29,697 nucleotides of DNA from the IMG/VR virus record IMGVR_UViG_3300034072_002202, positions 1 through 29,697 of that record, one strand, 5' to 3'. The first letter of the stretch is position 1; every line of letters starts with the position of its first letter. The stretch is from a virus. The notes beneath the pieces were generated by a model that was not told where the DNA came from, did not search any database, and saw only the letters and a list, made by a program, of their open reading frames with translations. Position numbers and translations under genes: made by a program. Shown here piece after piece: positions 3,380-29,203 of the stretch.

Positions 3380-3428
3380 TTATGTCTCCTCAGTGGTGTG
3401 GTGGTTGACCGCCAGTTGGTGCTGGCGG
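3380..3428 (-). promoter_or_regulatory. Leader module: CCAA-loop hairpin + CACCAC + GAGGAGAC
   Basis: On the minus strand, directly after the stop of the zinc-knuckle gene, CCGCCAG and CTGGCGG pair (7 bp) around the loop CACCAA. ACCACCACACC and the ribosome site GAGGAGAC follow, then the ATG at 3379. No T run follows the hairpin, so it is unlike a terminator. Confidence 0.7.
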
Positions 3429-3599
3429 TTATTTTAAGCGGATAGCGCCTGGCAACTTCCCGCCGCCAGCGTGCTTAGTGCATGCCTCGTAGTTGTGGTC
3501 TCGACCTCCGCAATACGTGCAGCGGAGATTGCCTGCAGTGCCATTTGACGGGCAGCAAGTGTAAGGGTGGCCGTTCTTTCCACAGTATGCGCAACGCAT
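3429..3599 (-). CDS. Double CCHC zinc-knuckle protein
   Basis: 56 residues. The ATG at 3599 overlaps the previous stop as TAATG and follows GGAG. Two exact CX2CX4HX4C knuckles are visible: C3-C6-H11-C16 and C27-C30-H35-C40, the spacing of retroviral nucleocapsid and eukaryotic CCHC knuckles. Such knuckles bind single-stranded nucleic acid. The basic C-terminus fits that, but a nucleic-acid role here is inference. A longer upstream start (3659) would add a tail that overlaps the previous gene and is not supported. Confidence 0.72.
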   Translation of the reverse strand: MRCAYCGKNGHPYTCCPSNGTAGNLRCTYCGGRDHNYEACTKHAGGGKLPGAIRLK

Positions 3600-5043: not shown

Positions 5044-5088
5044 GCAGTCTCCTCGATGTGGTGGTGAAGGCCGCTTGGCGGGCGGCCT
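5044..5088 (-). promoter_or_regulatory. Leader module: CCAA-loop hairpin + CACCACCAC + GAGGAGAC
   Basis: Minus strand: AGGCCGC and GCGGCCT pair (7 bp) around CCGCCAA, followed by TCACCACCACATC and GAGGAGAC, then the ATG at 5043. It lies just after the protease stop at 5095. The stem sequence differs entirely from the copy at 3409-3428 while loop and tail are kept. Confidence 0.72.
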
Positions 5089-6968: not shown

Positions 6969-7183
6969 TCACCCGCATCACTCGACAGAAAGACGCAAAA
7001 CAGCGGCTGTCGATGGCTCTACGTCAACTGAATGACGCTGTCAGGGACCTCCACAAGAGCGGCCTCGACGTGGAAATCATGGAGCTGACGATGTTAACGT
7101 CGCGCGGAGATATGAAGCAGTTCGATATCCGGACGTTTAGGGCAGAAGGCGCGCCGCCGGATTTGAAGGTGGTAGGAGACTGA
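6965..7183 (+). CDS. Small hypothetical protein
   Basis: 72 residues. The ATG at 6965 overlaps the previous stop as ATGA, with AGGAG 13 nt upstream. The first half is a basic amphipathic helix (RQKDAKQRLSMALRQLNDAVRDLHKSG), the second a short beta segment (FDIRTFRAEG). No motif is recognised. It is the last gene of the rightward run; a strong terminator follows about 90 nt later. Confidence 0.6.
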   Translation: MITRITRQKDAKQRLSMALRQLNDAVRDLHKSGLDVEIMELTMLTSRGDMKQFDIRTFRAEGAPPDLKVVGD

Positions 7184-7273
7184 CTTCGGAACTGATGGGT
7201 GCTGCGCTGGTTGGGTAGCTGGATGGTCTTCCCCCTGTCCGCTACTCCCGCAGCCTGTACGGGCTGCACAACT

Positions 7274-7302
7274 AAACCCTCCGCGTTGGAGGGTTTCTTT
7301 TT
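7274..7302 (+). terminator. Rho-independent terminator of the 5927-7183 operon
   Basis: AAACCCTCC and GGAGGGTTT pair (9 bp) around GCGTT, followed by CTTTTT. It separates the rightward small-gene run from the leftward cargo genes that end at 7312. Its near symmetry could let it act on both. Confidence 0.88.
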
Positions 7303-7311
7303 GCAGAATTT

Positions 7312-16622: not shown

Positions 16623-16655
16623 ATCGTCTCCCCTGTGGTGTTACTGCTGCTGCGC

Positions 16656-17129: not shown

Positions 17130-17292
17130 GGGCGTCTCCTCGTGTGGTGTTGTCGTGGTGGCGACACACATACTTTCCGAGAGAGGAGCGAAAACGGTTA
17201 GTGGATTTGGAGAAATATTTTTGGGTGAGCATCAGGTTGCAATCGGACTGCCCTTCTGCCCGGTGCACGTTGCCCGAATAAAAAACCTCAAT

Positions 17293-17617: not shown

Positions 17618-18925
17618 ATTAGTACATCGACTGACTTTGCGGAGTTTTTCCAGAACATCTCTATCAACAACTCCGATACCATTTCACTACGGTATGGCGA
17701 GGTTACACGAGCGCTAAACCTTGAATTCAGGGGCACCGATAATCGTGTGGCCAACAATCTCCAAGTCGGCTCGTATGGTAGACGCACCGCCATAAGGGGC
17801 ATATCTGATCTGGATATGCTCTATATCATGCCGGCTAGCGCTTGGGATGATTACAAGGATGGAGGCCAGTACAAGTTGCTTAGACGGGCCGCTGACGCAA
17901 TCATAAGCCGCTATCCGCGCACTACGGTCTATCCGGACACTTTGGTAGTGGTTGTTGAGTACACTAATTTCAAAATTGAAGTCCAGCCAGTCTTCAATGA
18001 TGGCAATGGACACTTCCTCTACCCTTATACACGGAACGGTGGGACCTGGCGGACAACGAAACCACGTCCGGAGCTTCAGGCAACCTCAGATGTCGATGAA
18101 GAGAAAAATGGCAACCTGAGGCGGCTAGCAAAACTCGCTAGAGCTTGGAAGAACAAGCACGGCGTCGCTATGGGGGGTCTGCTAATTGATACCCTTGCAT
18201 ACAATTACTTGAGAACGACGGACGAATTTGACGAAACGCATTTTGGTGGATGCGGAAATATGATCGCTGGATTTCTTGAATTTCTGAGCAACCAACAGGA
18301 CCAGGAAAGGTATTCTGCGCTGGGCAGCGGTCAGCATGTGAAAGTCCATAAGAAGTTTCAGAGGAAAGCGGCGAAGGCCCTTGCGATTGCGCAAAATGCT
18401 CTGTCTTCCGGTGAGAGTGCGTCCGCGAATAACTACTGGCGAGCTCTCCTCGGAAGGGCCTTCCCCGTCGCGAAATCTGTTGTTGATGAAAGCACTCTCG
18501 CCAAAGCCGGTTTTGTCAATCCGTCTCGAAACGAGCAGCACATCGAAGACCTATTCCCCGTCGACATACGTAACGCGATCCGTATCGAGTGTGAAGTTTC
18601 TCAAACTGGATTCAGGAGCTTTTTGATGAGAGCGAGCCGGGCAACGCGCCTTAGCAGGTTTATTCAAAAGGAGAAAAATCTCAGATTTTTTATAAATTCA
18701 CACAACATAAAGGGCGATTTCAAAATCTACTGGAAGGTGCTGAATCGGGGTTCTGAAGCTATCCGTAGGGATATGGTGCGGGGGCAGATTGAGCTCGGCA
18801 CACAAACTAAAGTTGAGCACTCATCGTTTCGTGGTGAGCATGTCGTCGACTGCTACGCAGTACAAAACGGCGTCGTCATCGCAAAGGACCGCATACACGT
18901 TCCGATTACTGAAGAGAACCATTGA
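17618..18925 (+). CDS. CD-NTase (cGAS/DncV-like cyclase) with AGS-C sensor domain, CBASS-like
   Basis: About 435 residues if translation starts at ATT 17618 (GGGAG 7 nt upstream). GTG 17747 is the first standard start but would remove 43 residues that fit the family (ISLRYGEVTRALNLEFR...NNL). The catalytic core is GSYGRRTAI (51-59) with SDLDM (Asp64, Asp66) and the third acidic residue in IEVQPVF (Glu121). A helical domain follows. The C-terminal about 80 residues (FKIYWKVLNRGSEAIRRDM...HFRGEHVVDCYAV-type pattern) match the AGS-C sensor. On phage infection such enzymes make cyclic oligonucleotides that switch on an effector, here the SLATT protein next door. AT-rich, unlike its neighbours. 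Confidence 0.87.
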   Translation: MSTSTDFAEFFQNISINNSDTISLRYGEVTRALNLEFRGTDNRVANNLQVGSYGRRTAIRGISDLDMLYIMPASAWDDYKDGGQYKLLRRAADAIISRYPRTTVYPDTLVVVVEYTNFKIEVQPVFNDGNGHFLYPYTRNGGTWRTTKPRPELQATSDVDEEKNGNLRRLAKLARAWKNKHGVAMGGLLIDTLAYNYLRTTDEFDETHFGGCGNMIAGFLEFLSNQQDQERYSALGSGQHVKVHKKFQRKAAKALAIAQNALSSGESASANNYWRALLGRAFPVAKSVVDESTLAKAGFVNPSRNEQHIEDLFPVDIRNAIRIECEVSQTGFRSFLMRASRATRLSRFIQKEKNLRFFINSHNIKGDFKIYWKVLNRGSEAIRRDMVRGQIELGTQTKVEHSSFRGEHVVDCYAVQNGVVIAKDRIHVPITEENH

Positions 18926-21443: not shown

Positions 21444-21494
21444 AGTTGTCTCCTCAATGATGTGGTGAAGTGCGGCTGGTTGGTGGCCAGCCGC
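21444..21494 (-). promoter_or_regulatory. Leader module: CCAA-loop hairpin + CACCAC + GAGGAGAC
   Basis: Minus strand: GCGGCTGG and CCAGCCGC pair (8 bp, perfect) around CCACCAA, then ACTTCACCACATCATT and GAGGAGAC before the ATG at 21443. This is the strongest stem in the set. Confidence 0.75.
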
Positions 21495-21503
21495 TAGCGC
21501 TGG

Positions 21504-23235: not shown

Positions 23236-23275
23236 GTCGTCTCCTCTGGGTGGTGGTGAACGGTTGGTAGCCGTT
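23236..23275 (-). promoter_or_regulatory. Leader module: CCAA-loop hairpin + CACCACCACC + GAGGAGAC
   Basis: Minus strand, right after the lipoprotein stop: AACGG and CCGTT pair (5 bp) around CTACCAA, then CACCACCACCCA and GAGGAGAC before the ATG at 23235. Confidence 0.68.
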
Positions 23276-23681: not shown

Positions 23682-23736
23682 TGTCGTCTCCTCTGGGTGG
23701 TGGCCGCCTTGTGGTTGACAAAGCAGCAGGGTTATG

Positions 23737-23765
23737 AAACTAAACTATTTTTACAAATTTGTCAA
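23737..23765 (-). promoter_or_regulatory. Leftward early promoter with ACAAATTTGT operator
   Basis: Minus strand TTGACA (23765-23760), 17-nt spacer, TAGTTT (23742-23737). ACAAATTTGT at 23753-23762 overlaps the -35 box. The operator also lies 24 nt before the divergent regulator gene at 23786. The predicted 5' leader contains a weaker hairpin CUUUGU/ACAAGG with loop CAACC. Confidence 0.72.
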
Positions 23766-23785: not shown

Positions 23786-24388
23786 ATGCCTGAAGTTAAG
23801 TCGCGCCTCCTCCAGTCGATACTGAAAGAACAGAAGCGGAGAGCCGTAAAAGATCGCGCTGTCTACGAAGAATTAGGCGTGCCCCAGCAGACCTTCAGCA
23901 CCTGGAAAGCTGGCGTCATACCGAGACCAAGACAATTCCCGGCGATTGCCGCCTTCCTCGGCGTCTCCGAAGAAGAAGTGGCGGAGATGGCTCGCGAGGC
24001 GGCCGAAACCGCCCCGTCCGTCACGCCGATTACGGTCGCCCGCACCTACGGCAAGATATCTGACCGCAAAGCTGGCAAATTCAAATTCGAACCAATCAAC
24101 GACGGCCGCAAACGTATTCCTGAAGGCAGGTACGCGATCATCATCGACACGAAAGTGATGGAGCCAGTCTTCCACGTCGGCGTAAAGGCGTGGCTCGACC
24201 CTTCCCGCTGGCCCGCCGCCGGTGACGACGTTCTGGCACATTCGGGCGGTTTCGCCTGGATTGGGCGGTTCGAAGGAATGAGCAACGGCGCCGTTCAGCT
24301 TAGCCGCTACGACGGATCGCAGCTTGAAGTCAAAAACGTTGAAGCTGTTCATGTCATCGTCCTTTCGGAGCGAGTGGTTGCGGCATAG
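23786..24388 (+). CDS. HTH regulator with S24-like domain lacking the catalytic serine
   Basis: 200 residues from ATG 23786; a TTG at 23759 would lie inside the operator. The N-terminus (about 20-62, AVYEELGVPQQTFSTWKAGVIPRP) is a helix-turn-helix. The C-terminal half has the S24/LexA-like fold pattern (YAIIIDT...MEPVF...AAGDDVL), but the GDSMEP site reads TKVMEP, with Val124 in place of the nucleophilic Ser. Self-cleavage is therefore unlikely. Its position divergent to the early operon suggests a Cro- or repressor-type protein acting on ACAAATTTGT. Confidence 0.8.
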   Translation: MPEVKSRLLQSILKEQKRRAVKDRAVYEELGVPQQTFSTWKAGVIPRPRQFPAIAAFLGVSEEEVAEMAREAAETAPSVTPITVARTYGKISDRKAGKFKFEPINDGRKRIPEGRYAIIIDTKVMEPVFHVGVKAWLDPSRWPAAGDDVLAHSGGFAWIGRFEGMSNGAVQLSRYDGSQLEVKNVEAVHVIVLSERVVAA

Positions 24389-24412: not shown

Positions 24413-24441
24413 TTGACAATTCCTACAAATTTGTGTAGGAG
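24413..24441 (+). promoter_or_regulatory. Rightward promoter with ACAAATTTGT operator
   Basis: TTGACA (24413-24418), 17-nt spacer, TAGGAG (24436-24441). ACAAATTTGT (24425-24434) fills the spacer, inside a larger inverted repeat TCCTACA/TGTAGGA (24421-24440). The -10 box is weak, but the layout equals the two leftward ACAAATTTGT promoters. It would transcribe the candidate small RNA. Confidence 0.55.
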
Positions 24442-24446
24442 ATTGG

Positions 24447-24580
24447 TTGTCCGCTGTGGTGGCGGATATGGAATACGCGCTTTGATCCCGCCTTACGGCG
24501 AAGGTCTCCTCGGCGTGTTAGTACGGAGAAGGGGCGGAGTTACGGGTGGTGCCGGCTCATTACGCCCCTTTTCGTTTTTT
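24447..24580 (+). ncRNA. Candidate phage small RNA with anti-leader sequences
   Basis: A promoter (24413-24441) and an intrinsic terminator (AAGGGGCG 24529-24536 with CGCCCCTT 24563-24570, then TTCGTTTTTT) delimit about 130 nt with no credible ORF. The RNA contains GTCTCCTC (24504-24511), the exact complement of the GAGGAGAC ribosome site shared by many genes here, and TGTGGTGG (24455-24462), complementary to their CCACCACA. TTGGTTG (24443-24449), the complement of the CAACCAA loops, lies at the predicted start and may or may not be transcribed. It is antisense to the end of 24540-24662. Confidence 0.45.
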
Positions 24581-24662
24581 GCTGCATGCACGACAACGCC
24601 GGCAGAGCTTCATGCTCCACCGGCGCTAATTTTTCGAAGTCATTGTTTGCGGTCTCTCTCAT
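24540..24662 (-). CDS. Very small protein behind a leader module
   Basis: 40 residues, ATG 24662 with GGGGAGACG. MRETANNDFEKLAPVEHEALPALSC and a basic tail (KTKRGVMSRHHP). No family is recognised. Support comes from the leader with its hairpin and ribosome site. Its 3' end overlaps the candidate small RNA and its terminator on the other strand. Confidence 0.45.
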   Translation of the reverse strand: MRETANNDFEKLAPVEHEALPALSCMQQKTKRGVMSRHHP

Positions 24663-24717
24663 AGTCGTCTCCCCTTCTGGCATTAGTGGTTTTGTTATCG
24701 CCAGTTGGTTGCTGGCG
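24663..24717 (-). promoter_or_regulatory. Leader module: CCAA-loop hairpin, long spacer, GGGGAGAC
   Basis: Minus strand, 1 nt after the previous stop: CGCCAG and CTGGCG pair (6 bp) around CAACCAA. ATAACAAAACCACTAATG and GGGGAGAC follow before the ATG at 24662. The spacer is longer than in other copies and CACCAC is reduced to ACCAC. Confidence 0.6.
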
Positions 24718-24718
24718 T

Positions 24719-24856
24719 TTAAGGCGGCCCGGTCACTGGCCGCCATCTTCTTCTGCGGTCGGGAGCTTCATGCTCCCATCTTCTTCTCGCCGTCATGGCG
24801 CTCATGCCGATCAGCGCTTGGGTCGTCGATCGTCTTCTTTCGCAATCCTTAAACAT
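24719..24856 (-). CDS. Possible small Arg-rich protein
   Basis: 45 residues, ATG 24856. MFKDCERRRSTTQALIGMSA followed by a basic Arg/Trp-rich end. The ribosome site is poor (AAAGGGAATGCGC). Its stop lies 1 nt before a leader hairpin, as in other gene junctions here, and a leftward promoter lies about 80 nt upstream. A second overlapping short ORF is possible, so the call is uncertain. Confidence 0.35.
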   Translation of the reverse strand: MFKDCERRRSTTQALIGMSAMTARRRWEHEAPDRRRRWRPVTGPP

Positions 24857-25012: not shown

Positions 25013-25720
25013 ATGGCAAAGTTGAGCGACATCATAAGGTCTAAGCGCAAGGAAATGGGCTTAACGCAGAAGGCGTTCGGCAACCTTTTTGGTGCGCAAC
25101 AGACAACCGTCTCCGATTGGGAGAAAGGTAAGATATCTATGATGCGCAACTGGCAGAAGCTTGCCGGGTCTCTTGGTCTGCGCGAATCGGAGTTTCTCGA
25201 CCTTATGGCTGAGGCGACGACCGAGTCGGAAAAGACCGAGCGCATGATTCCCGCGTTGCGTCAGGCAACTGCCCCTATCATTAATACCGGTAGTATCATT
25301 GCCGCTCCTAAACCGCCGTCCGGGGAGCGTGACGTGCCTGTTCTAGGCAGGTCGAAGGGAGGGTCGGACGGTGAGTTTGAGTTCAACGGGCAGATCATGG
25401 GCTGGGAATGGAGGCCGCCTCACCTGGCGGGCGTCGCCGAGGCATATGCATCTTATGTAGACGGCGAGAGCATGTATCCGCGTTACAAGCCAGGCGAGAC
25501 GGTATGGACCAATCCGCCAAAGCCAATCGCGCGCGGCGATGACGTTATCGTGCAGCTGGCACCGAACGAAGAGGACGGCGTTCCTCGCGGCTTCATCAAA
25601 GAGTTTGTACGATGGGAGCCAAGCTTTTTGGTGGTGTGCCAGTTCAACCCCCCGATGGAAATCAAATACCCGCGCGACGACGTCGTCTCGATCCACAAAA
25701 TCGACTACGCGCAGAAATAA
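25013..25720 (+). CDS. CI-like phage repressor (XRE HTH + S24 peptidase)
   Basis: 235 residues from ATG 25013 (a GTG at 25007 is the alternative). HTH_XRE spans about 5-60 (LTQKAFGNLFGAQQTTVSDWEKGK). A linker follows, then an S24 domain with the nucleophile Ser153 in DGESMYPRY and the general-base Lys196 in GFIKEFVRW, so RecA-stimulated self-cleavage is likely. There is no ribosome site: a TATACC-like box at 25000-25005 and a TACCGGT half operator lie directly before the start, suggesting a leaderless, autoregulated mRNA as for lambda cI. Operators of the ACCGGTTT type flank it on both sides. Confidence 0.88.
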   Translation: MAKLSDIIRSKRKEMGLTQKAFGNLFGAQQTTVSDWEKGKISMMRNWQKLAGSLGLRESEFLDLMAEATTESEKTERMIPALRQATAPIINTGSIIAAPKPPSGERDVPVLGRSKGGSDGEFEFNGQIMGWEWRPPHLAGVAEAYASYVDGESMYPRYKPGETVWTNPPKPIARGDDVIVQLAPNEEDGVPRGFIKEFVRWEPSFLVVCQFNPPMEIKYPRDDVVSIHKIDYAQK

Positions 25721-25768
25721 CGGTTTACCGTTTTAACGGTTGACGACGCACCGGTATCGTTCTATATC
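25719..25768 (+). promoter_or_regulatory. Rightward early promoter (PR-like) with CI-type operators
   Basis: TTGACG (25740-25745), 17-nt spacer, TATATC (25763-25768). ACCGGTA lies in the spacer and AACGG-TTTA-CCGTT (25719-25732) just upstream. It would drive the 25819-29203 operon including xis and int. Transcription would start at about 25775, immediately before the leader hairpin. Confidence 0.68.
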
Positions 25769-25779
25769 TCCTCTTGTAC

Positions 25780-25818
25780 CCAGCAAACCAAGCTGGTCAC
25801 CACAAGAGGAGATACACT
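25780..25818 (+). promoter_or_regulatory. 5' leader module: CCAA-loop hairpin + CACCAC + GAGGAGA
   Basis: CCAGC and GCTGG pair (5 bp) around AAACCAA, then TCACCACAA and GAGGAGA before the ATG at 25819. Here the module forms the 5' end of an mRNA on the opposite strand from the other copies, so it cannot be a terminator of an upstream gene. Confidence 0.7.
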
Positions 25819-26187
25819 ATGTACAGACCGCGTCCCGAAGAGTTCGACGATATCGCGATTGCCGCACACGGTGCTGTTGCCCAGTCCGACGAGCCTATGA
25901 AGCGCCCGGACCACAAGGCTAAGAAGCACGGCAAGCCCAAGACGAAATACGAATACATGCGCCGCTTCCCCAAGAAGCCGCGCAACGGCGAGGAAGTCGG
26001 CGGCGGCCACTTCGTATTCCGCCGTGGCGACAGCACTGGACGCATCCGTCCGTGCATGTGGCCCTTTGAGCATCCCTCCTACGATTCTGCGCTGGTTGAA
26101 GCCGCGCGCCTGCACAAAGAGCATGGCGGCACCTTTGAGGTGTTTGTTCGCGTCGGCCGTGTCGAGGCGCTGGAGGCCGGCGAATGA
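25819..26187 (+). CDS. First gene of rightward operon, hypothetical
   Basis: 122 residues, ATG 25819 with GAGGAGA 6 nt upstream. A basic linker (PMKRPDHKAKKHGKPKTKYEYMRRFPKKPRNG) is followed by a compact domain (GGGHFVFRRGDSTGRIRPCMWPFEHPSYDSALVEAARLHKEHGGTFEVFVRVG). No family is recognised. The stop overlaps the next gene as ATGA. It is the first product of the CI-controlled rightward promoter, a place often used by Cro- or host-takeover proteins, but no HTH is visible. Confidence 0.68.
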   Translation: MYRPRPEEFDDIAIAAHGAVAQSDEPMKRPDHKAKKHGKPKTKYEYMRRFPKKPRNGEEVGGGHFVFRRGDSTGRIRPCMWPFEHPSYDSALVEAARLHKEHGGTFEVFVRVGRVEALEAGE

Positions 26188-26581: not shown

Positions 26582-26612
26582 CCACCACCAAACACCACTT
26601 GAGGAGACAAAC

Positions 26613-26825
26613 ATGTCGAGAAGACGCGACACTACCTACACCCCTGCTCCATACGCCGGCGACGGTCTTGAAGTCGTAGCCAACCTTTCATCCGGAACCG
26701 CACCGACGGTCGTTCTCGTCGCTGTCGCCAAGTGGCACGAACGCAGGAAGGATAGCCGCAATCGCGTCATCGCCTCCAAGCTGCGTGAGCTCGTCGCGGC
26801 GAATGATAATGGGAGGAGAAGATGA
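26613..26825 (+). CDS. Small basic protein ending in ANDN tail
   Basis: 70 residues. The upstream sequence reads ACACCACTTGAGGAGACAAAC, the leader motif without the hairpin. The middle (TAPTVVLVAVAKWHERRKDSRNRVIASKLRELV) is a helical region, and the end is AANDNGRRR. The stop overlaps the next ATG as ATGA. Function unknown. Confidence 0.62.
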   Translation: MSRRRDTTYTPAPYAGDGLEVVANLSSGTAPTVVLVAVAKWHERRKDSRNRVIASKLRELVAANDNGRRR

Positions 26826-27917: not shown

Positions 27918-28170
27918 CAACACCCCTCGCCTCATGGGCAGAAGAGAATCCGCCGCCTATCTCGGCATAGGGCAGTCAACGTTTTCGCTGTGGGTGTCGA
28001 CCCACAAGATGCCGGCAGCTATTGCCGGCACTCGCAAGTGGGACAAGCGAGCGATTGACGCTAAACTCGACGAGATAAGCGGGCTTCTCCCCGCGAATGA
28101 CAATACCGAGGATGAATTCGAACGATGGGAGCGCGAGCAGAATGCGCGAAAAGCTCAAGGGTCTAGCTAG
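27901..28170 (+). CDS. xis: Excisionase-like HTH protein
   Basis: 89 residues from ATG 27901. An AlpA/MerR-type winged helix is visible at about 10-55 (LMGRRESAAYLGIGQSTFSLWVSTHKMPAAIAGTRKWDKRAIDAKL), the usual recombination directionality factor fold. SPANDN and LPANDN flank it on both sides. It overlaps the integrase start by 29 nt, so the two are co-translated. The symbol is by role and position; no specific family member is implied. Confidence 0.75.
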   Translation: MSPANDNTPRLMGRRESAAYLGIGQSTFSLWVSTHKMPAAIAGTRKWDKRAIDAKLDEISGLLPANDNTEDEFERWEREQNARKAQGSS

Positions 28171-29203
28171 GGTCAAGAAGCGGCTCGCCAGCGGCAAGAC
28201 CATCACATACTGCTACGCCTGGCGCGGCGGACCGCTGTTGAAAGACAGGGCGGGCCGTCCGCTTCAGCCCGGCGATCCGCTGCTTATGCGAGCGTTTGTC
28301 GAGGCTACGAAGGATCGCTTCGTCGACCAGACCGACAACATGAACCGGCTGATCACCGAGTACAAATCGTCGACGGACTTTACCGGCCTCTCTCCGAAGT
28401 CGCAGAAGGAATACAGCCGCTACATCGACAAGGTGCGCGATGCTTTCGGCACGATGAGCCTCGTAGCGATCCAGGACAAGCGAGCGCGAGGCAAGTTCAA
28501 GGAGTGGCGTGATGGCATGGCTGACAAGCCTCGCAGCGCCGACTTCGCATGGATGGTGCTTGCACGCATTCTGTCGTTTGCAAAAGACCGCGGACGGATC
28601 TCGATAAATCAGGCGGAACGCGGCGGGCGCATTTACAGCGTCGATCGCAACGAAAACATCTGGACCGATGAAACCTTGGCTCGCCTTTTCGCCGTGGCTT
28701 CCGACGAAATCAAAGCCGCAGTGATCATGGCGCTGTGGACTGGCCAGCGTAAGGGAGACATCCTCAAGGCTCCATGGAGCGACTACGACGGCTCGCACAT
28801 CAAGGTGAGGCAAGGGAAGACCGGCGCCCGCGTGAAGATACCGGCTGGCGCAGAGCTTCGAGAACTGCTGGACAGCATGCCGAGGATTTCGCCCACCATC
28901 CTCACCAACAAACGCGACAAGCGGCCGTGGACCTCTGACGGGTTCAACACAAGTTGGACGAAGGCAAAAGCCAAGGCCAGCATCACGGATCTTACCTTTC
29001 ACGACCTCCGTGGCACGGCAGTCACCCGTCTAGCAATCGCAGGGTGCTCGGTGGCGCAGATCGCAGCGATCACCGGCCATAGCCTCAAGGACGTAGAAGG
29101 CATTCTCGATGCCCACTACCTTGGCGGCAAGGCCGCCCTCGCCGAGGAGGCCATAAAGAAGCTGGAAGACTACCGCGCAACGCCAAATAAAAAGCCCGCT
29201 TGA
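28142..29203 (+). CDS. int: Tyrosine recombinase (phage integrase)
   Basis: 353 residues from ATG 28142. An N-terminal SAM-like core-binding domain (about 75-160) precedes the catalytic domain with Arg203 (WTGQRKGD), Lys226 (RQGKTG), His287-x-x-Arg290 (FHDLRGTAVTRL), His313 (TGHSLKDVE) and the nucleophile Tyr326 (LDAHYLGG). All six catalytic positions are present. It should act on the 45-bp tRNA-Arg core at 81-125 and 29378-29422. It is the last gene of the CI-controlled rightward operon; a terminator overlaps its stop. Confidence 0.95.
   Translation: MREKLKGLARVKKRLASGKTITYCYAWRGGPLLKDRAGRPLQPGDPLLMRAFVEATKDRFVDQTDNMNRLITEYKSSTDFTGLSPKSQKEYSRYIDKVRDAFGTMSLVAIQDKRARGKFKEWRDGMADKPRSADFAWMVLARILSFAKDRGRISINQAERGGRIYSVDRNENIWTDETLARLFAVASDEIKAAVIMALWTGQRKGDILKAPWSDYDGSHIKVRQGKTGARVKIPAGAELRELLDSMPRISPTILTNKRDKRPWTSDGFNTSWTKAKAKASITDLTFHDLRGTAVTRLAIAGCSVAQIAAITGHSLKDVEGILDAHYLGGKAALAEEAIKKLEDYRATPNKKPA

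Follow-up and report, generated by a model that had tools for sequence, protein, structure and literature searches.

The stretch between the genes for an HTH regulator (23786..24388, +; phrog_4 and phrog_638) and a CI-type repressor (25013..25720, +; HTH_3, S24-like) in a viral DNA of 29,697 nucleotides, the whole of which we call the window, raises the question of whether it encodes a small RNA and, if so, what that RNA would act upon. A first-pass annotation had proposed an RNA carrying complements of the modules of a leader shared by many of the phage genes, so that many genes could be addressed at once. Homology, covariation and co-change of RNA and leaders lend strong support to this idea, and we put at roughly 0.7 the probability that a folded antisense RNA encoded here acts in trans to control the translation of its own phage's genes.

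The putative RNA is ~130 nt long (24447..24577, +; these limits are those of the match to a covariance model, R1, and the transcript ends are predicted). Its promoter (24413..24441, +) consists of TTGACA (24413-24418) and TAGGAG (24436-24441) separated by 17 nt, with the operator dyad CCTACAAATTTGTGTAGG (24422-24439) in and around the spacer; a promoter of the TTGACAAATTTG type is retained in homologs. At the other end lies a terminator hairpin (24529..24580, +), in which the 8-bp stem P3, with the arms AAGGGGCG (24529-24536) and CGCCCCTT (24563-24570), bears a smaller hairpin, P4, CGG-GTGGTG-CCG (24543-24554), and is followed by the T-run TTCGTTTTTT; many homologs have no evident T-run directly after P3. 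Promoter and terminator are thus present where the first-pass annotation had placed them, and so are the two complements of leader modules, TGTGGTGG (24455-24462) and GTCTCCTC (24504-24511). On both strands of the window (30 kb) and of phage 16-3 (60 kb), the RNA is the sole site at which TGTGGTG and GTCTCCT lie no more than 117 nt apart, the antisense strands of the leaders excepted. Given this uniqueness, a fold z-score of -2.3 for the window strand and the compensatory changes in homologs described below, the complementary segments exceed what chance would produce.

The locus had also been described as lacking a good open reading frame. This stands insofar as the element is non-coding, since the lengths of its homologs are spread over all three frames; it does not extend to the surroundings, where an 83-aa ORF with a TTG start (24413-24664) overlaps the element. 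A 40-aa minus-strand ORF behind GGGGAGACGACT (24540-24662, -), with no Pfam or PHROG matches, overlaps the 3' end of the RNA. A third contact, between TTGGTTG (24443-24449) and a CAACCAA loop, had been suggested as well, and we abandoned it: the counterparts in relatives read CTGACTG, TTGATTG, TTGTGTG and others, and with a -10 element at 24436-24441 the RNA is expected to start near 24448, so that TTGGTTG probably lies outside it. Descent of the complement from a minus-strand leader was likewise rejected, because its segments stand in the wrong order and GAGGAGAC is not followed by a start codon on that strand.

The predicted structure is built around three unpaired segments that are the most constant parts of the RNA, namely GUCUCCUC, the terminator-hairpin loop GUGGUG and the loop UGUGGUG of the 5' hairpin. 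The latter, P1 (24449..24467, +; GTCCGC-TGTGGTG-GCGGAT), exposes a loop (24455-24461) complementary to CACCACA, which is found in 44 of 48 distinct homologs, and all 6 of the P1 pairs show compensatory change. P2 (24470..24524, +) contains what its consensus suggests to be a bulged-G-like module, S (24470) and GAA (24471-24473) facing AGTA (24520-24523) and S' (24524), where the S-S' pair is G-C in 28 homologs and C-G in 12, with no exceptions among those scored. In the internal loop of P2 sits GUCUCCUC (24504..24511, +; GTCTCCTC in the DNA), complementary to GAGGAGAC and hereafter called the seed; it is identical in 41 of the 48 homologs, and its variants change together with the leaders. The P4 loop GUGGUG (24546-24551, within GGGTGGTG, 24544-24551), overlooked by the first-pass annotation, is present in 48 of 48 homologs, on a stem that varies among CGG/CCG, CAG/CTG, CGA/TCG and CAC/GTG. 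P3 carries P4 and, in most relatives, also P5, often with a UUCG loop. Compensatory change is seen at 22 of the 24 base pairs when the 48 distinct sequences are compared. The alignment of these 48 rows, fitted to the covariance model, holds 232 double-change cells, compared with 61.8±8.7 after shuffling and at most 51 after sliding, and an unfitted MAFFT alignment returned the same verdict (99 cells against 28.7±4.7 shuffled and at most 41 slid). Apart from one tRNA, no Rfam 15 family reached its gathering threshold in the window or in five relatives, and the RNA itself had no Rfam match up to E = 10, a comparison that covers the C4 antisense and alpha-r families insofar as Rfam contains them.

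This RNA is conserved in many phages of Rhizobiales, including the temperate model phage 16-3 of S. meliloti and the lytic Agrobacterium phages Milano and 7-7-1. Many temperate-phage homologs were recovered by pattern scans and a regulator-based search, and a blastn search with one of them identified those of 16-3 and of the R. etli phage RHph_TM3_3_14B; in Milano and 7-7-1, blastn located the 3' half of the RNA between genes. The only annotation at the site in 7-7-1 is a stem-loop, and the genome paper of that phage mentions just two high-energy stem-loops (PMC3517404). R1 was built from 27 sequences, among them the window, which therefore scores 96 bits (E 6e-26) as one of the model's own; outside the model's sequences, the scores are 45 bits for Milano, 38 bits for 7-7-1 and 24-29 bits for a permuted, type II form of the RNA in Metarhizobium album and Rhizobium daejeonense. 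We took as chance a weak match in RHph_I1_18 (17 bits), a stretch with neither the GUCUCCUC seed nor the P4 hairpin, together with most of the pattern matches in genome contigs outside Rhizobiales, and no convincing homolog was found in a plasmid collection. The RNA was considered as a candidate for the immX element of 16-3 and rejected, the annotated immX genes occupying 18306-18740 and the RNA 36893-37024, away from immXu and immXl. One record (L137) carries two tandem copies, at 7034-7170 and 7189-7303, with the different seeds GUCUCCUC and GACUCCUC.

The putative targets share the leader CACCAC(A)-N0-8-GAGGAGAC-ATG, which stands upstream of ~10 genes of the window and is also found in its relatives. 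On the plus strand, it takes the form CACCACAAGAGGAGATACACT before the ATG at 25819 (25798..25818) and CACCACTTGAGGAGACAAAC before that at 26613 (26593..26612); on the minus strand, it reads CACCACCCAGAGGAGACGACA at the phrog_478 (RDF) gene (23682..23702), CACCACCCAGAGGAGACGAC (23236..23255), CACCACATCATTGAGGAGACAACT (21444..21467), CACCACACGAGGAGACGCCC (17130..17149), CACCACAGGGGAGACGAT (16623..16640), CACCACATCGAGGAGACTGC (5044..5063) and CACCACTGAGGAGACATAA (3380..3398). Most of the leaders of 16-3 lie in its rightward early and replication half. When upstream 7-mers of 16-3 were ranked without any preselected motif, CACCACA and AGGAGAC were among the most enriched; these words are complementary to the P1 loop and the P2 seed, respectively. 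A stem-loop with a loop of the ACCAA type stands ahead of many leaders, as in the minus-strand intergenic regions at 3405-3430, 21468-21495 and 24700-24720. The leader of the gene starting at 25819, the first of the rightward genes, has upstream of it an anti-Shine-Dalgarno (anti-SD) segment of its own, ATATCTCCTCTTGT, which can pair with ACAAGAGGAGATA (window 25764-25812) and resembles the RNA seed in cis.

The distribution of this leader follows that of the RNA in temperate carriers. Five whole host genomes contain 24 leaders and no match to a reversed control, and 22 of the 24 lie on the same contig as the RNA and no more than ~50 kb from it. One of these genomes (G003) has leaders at C23:22023 and C26:18988, away from its RNA-bearing prophage, perhaps in a second prophage. 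Among 14 named rhizobiophages, the three temperate carriers of the RNA have 14, 13 and 11 leader matches, and none was found in the nine phages in which no RNA was confidently identified (the temperate phiLM21, PBC5 and RR1-A among them) or in the lytic carriers Milano and 7-7-1. Host chromosomes and rhizobiophages that lack the RNA thus have hardly any copies of the leader. Among 42 viral records collected with one leader as the seed, with two partial matches of 12-16 bits ignored, the RNA occurs in 12 of 16 leader-rich records (at least 3 leaders) versus 3 of 26 leader-poor ones (p = 5e-5). Four leader-rich records (G012, G013, G027 and G028) have no R1 match and, one match in G013 excepted, no typical P4 loop; they are perhaps fragments, or the RNA may be truly absent.

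The strongest sign that selection acts on pairing is the joint change of RNA and leaders, which was recognised post hoc and in few lineages. For this comparison, leaders were picked by a rule independent of GAGGAGAC, and phages whose RNA carries GUCUCCUC, or GUCUCCUG in the case of 16-3, were taken as canonical; their leaders contain GAGGAGAC in 53 of 79 cases. Where the RNA reads GUCUCUCC (G050), 5 of 8 leaders read GGAGAGAC, against 0 of 79 canonical ones (p = 1.5e-6), and GAGGAGAC is found in none of the 8. Where it reads AUCUCCUC (G032), GAGGAGAU occurs in 4 of 9 leaders, against 7 of 79 (p = 0.013). Pairing was thus kept by matched changes in these two cases, with the same restriction to few lineages examined post hoc. 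A third carrier (G048), with GACUCCUC in its RNA, has GAGGAGAC in only 2 of 13 leaders versus the canonical 53 of 79 (p = 6e-4); its leaders mostly keep GAGGAG and have lost the following AC, with no new match to the RNA. In 16-3, the leaders show no shift matching GUCUCCUG.

These changes bear on whether the complementarity merely mirrors the composition of Shine-Dalgarno (SD) and anti-SD sequences, the RNA serving some other function such as protein binding. The core CUCCU would indeed fit ordinary ribosome sites, and a fold of this complexity might be bound by a protein. However, the match runs beyond the SD core to the AC and to CACCAC, some of the positions that changed in step in G032 and G050 fall outside that core, and the complete leader is particular to these phages, which makes coincidental composition a most improbable explanation. 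The RNA carries conserved unpaired segments complementary to initiation regions encoded elsewhere, as a trans-acting antisense RNA would, and very probably pairs with the leaders of its own phage.

As for the geometry of this pairing, the first-pass annotation had held that the order of the segments precludes one antiparallel duplex. This is not so for the seed and the P4 loop, which stand in the right order for CACCAC followed by GAGGAGAC, making a two-point antisense contact on a single leader feasible. The seed would pair with the ribosome-binding site GAGGAGAC and the GUGGUG loop at the tip of P4 with the CACCAC just upstream; a further, kissing contact may come from the UGUGGUG that most carriers expose at the P1 tip. 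Milano, 7-7-1 and three further homologs (L332, L333 and L334) have lost or altered the P1 loop, whereas all five retain the P4 loop and a CU-rich seed, and these two segments, in that order, form the most widely kept pair. Opening the RNA segments is predicted to cost ~0-5 kcal/mol, and duplexes of about -12 to -19 kcal/mol are predicted for 9 of 10 window leaders. Whole-complex cofolding was discarded as a target score, true leaders not being clearly separated from shuffled ones; it discriminates weakly because kissing loops cannot be modelled.

Occupation of the ribosome site would most likely block initiation, and thereby a single RNA would lower the output of a whole gene set. Repression is, judging from the pairing site, the most likely outcome. 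The same contacts could conceivably have the opposite sign, with the RNA activating or protecting its targets, for instance by melting the stem-loops found ahead of many leaders or by keeping nucleases off the mRNA. The evidence for pairing fits activation equally well, and the SD of the 25819 leader is predicted to lie in a strong hairpin that costs ~16.5 kcal/mol to open. Nevertheless, the seed covers the SD itself, and most leaders of the window have an SD that is accessible from the outset (predicted opening cost ~1.5-6 kcal/mol), leaving little to be opened, so that we regard activation as unlikely.

Under translational repression, the RNA would recognise its targets by the leader that roughly 10-16 genes of each genome share, and the set lowered would comprise many early and DNA-metabolism genes of the phage. 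The promoters suggest when this might happen. In 16-3, TTGACAAATTTG promoters, sharing an operator-like sequence, stand ahead of the RNA, its neighbouring HTH regulator p070 and several of the genes that have the leader. A core, ACAAATTTG, is common to three promoters of the window, at 23765(-), 5863(-) and 24413(+), which precede the phrog_478 (RDF) gene, a protease gene and the RNA, respectively. The gene order regulator-RNA-repressor is common to the window, 16-3 and RHph_TM3_3_14B, and the regulator adjoining the RNA, of the p070 type, is a candidate controller of the TTGACAAATTTGTA promoters and of those of the TTGACAAATTTG type. Since regulator, RNA and leader genes have such operator-promoters in common, the RNA and part of its targets would be co-expressed and, switched on together, might act as a feed-forward brake, keeping early protein synthesis within limits or setting its timing. 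We infer transcription, repression as the sign of the effect and this regulon-based timing from the arrangement of promoters and pairing sites.

The early lytic transcript, which starts near the repressor gene, runs on the strand opposite to the RNA gene in the window and in 16-3. This orientation would suit an element acting mainly in cis, as an antisense RNA or by transcription interference against that transcript. Yet such a role leaves unexplained the loop-specific conservation and the co-change with distant leaders, and in Milano and 7-7-1 the RNA is on the same strand as its neighbours; the leader targets lie elsewhere. We therefore consider a chiefly cis-acting element very unlikely. 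The early lytic transcript could titrate the trans-acting RNA or be controlled by it. The window may itself be an integrated element, as suggested by a tRNA gene near its left end (49-122, +) and an integrase-like gene at its right end (28097-29203, +).

Most of the antisense RNAs known from phages have a single gene under their control. The C4 antisense RNA of P1 and P7 resembles the present RNA in having separated segments complementary to a translation-initiation region, but C4 acts on one operon, and the RNA described here has no Rfam match. The same lack of a match separates it from alpha-r14/NfeR1 and AbcR, the anti-SD small RNAs of alpha-proteobacteria, Rhizobiales included, which address many targets through unpaired CU-rich motifs; these are chromosomal and not tied to a phage leader. 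Among the small antisense RNAs involved in lysis-lysogeny control, sar and sas of P22, OOP of lambda and aQ (PMC12197685), P22 sar pairs with its mRNA and stops translation initiation, much as proposed here; however, each of the four acts on one gene encoded opposite, whereas the present RNA would address the repeated leader of many distant genes. VpdS of Vibrio phage VP882, which affects phage and host mRNAs, and PreS of lambda act in trans, as we propose for this RNA, but both are described as Hfq-dependent and largely host-directed, and no shared phage leader is reported for them in that source (PMC12197685). The U-rich tail that ends the window-type RNA is suggestive at most with respect to Hfq dependence. 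We found no earlier description of this RNA in the literature searched, the coverage of which was incomplete, and priority is unproven. A widespread, highly structured RNA without an Rfam family thus seems to reach about a dozen genes of the phage encoding it by way of a repeated ribosome-site leader; this would explain an otherwise odd shared leader and provide an easy entry to the control of early genes in the model rhizobial phage 16-3.

The presence of the same RNA in strictly lytic phages raises a further question. Milano and 7-7-1 have no leaders, so the target there must differ, be it a prophage, a competitor or the host. Their retention of the CU-rich seed and the GUGGUG loop would be accounted for if the RNA acted chiefly on other replicons, such as temperate phages that are resident or in competition, or on mRNAs of the host, with its own leaders a by-product or second role. 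Against this, RNA and leaders are linked and change together in temperate carriers, and host chromosomes outside these prophages are almost devoid of the full leader; as a general account, we find it improbable. A broader picture, which we offer tentatively and consider doubtful as a whole, would combine both: in temperate phages, a phage-wide translational regulon whose address leader marks most of the separately started genes, and the same RNA, acquired by unrelated lytic phages without the address, silencing resident or competing temperate phages. Self-avoidance in 7-7-1, where GAGGAGA is absent from 69 kb, was dismissed as a signal, the RNA-less lytic phages phiN3 and Atu_ph02 also having none; the leaders of 7-7-1 were likewise discarded as targets of its own RNA, because the enriched upstream words match no further than AGGAGT and AAGGGG. 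In Milano (L002), GAGGAGA occurs, besides the antisense of the RNA, only at 53558-53564, where it serves as ribosome site for Milano_091, a short distance downstream of the RNA.
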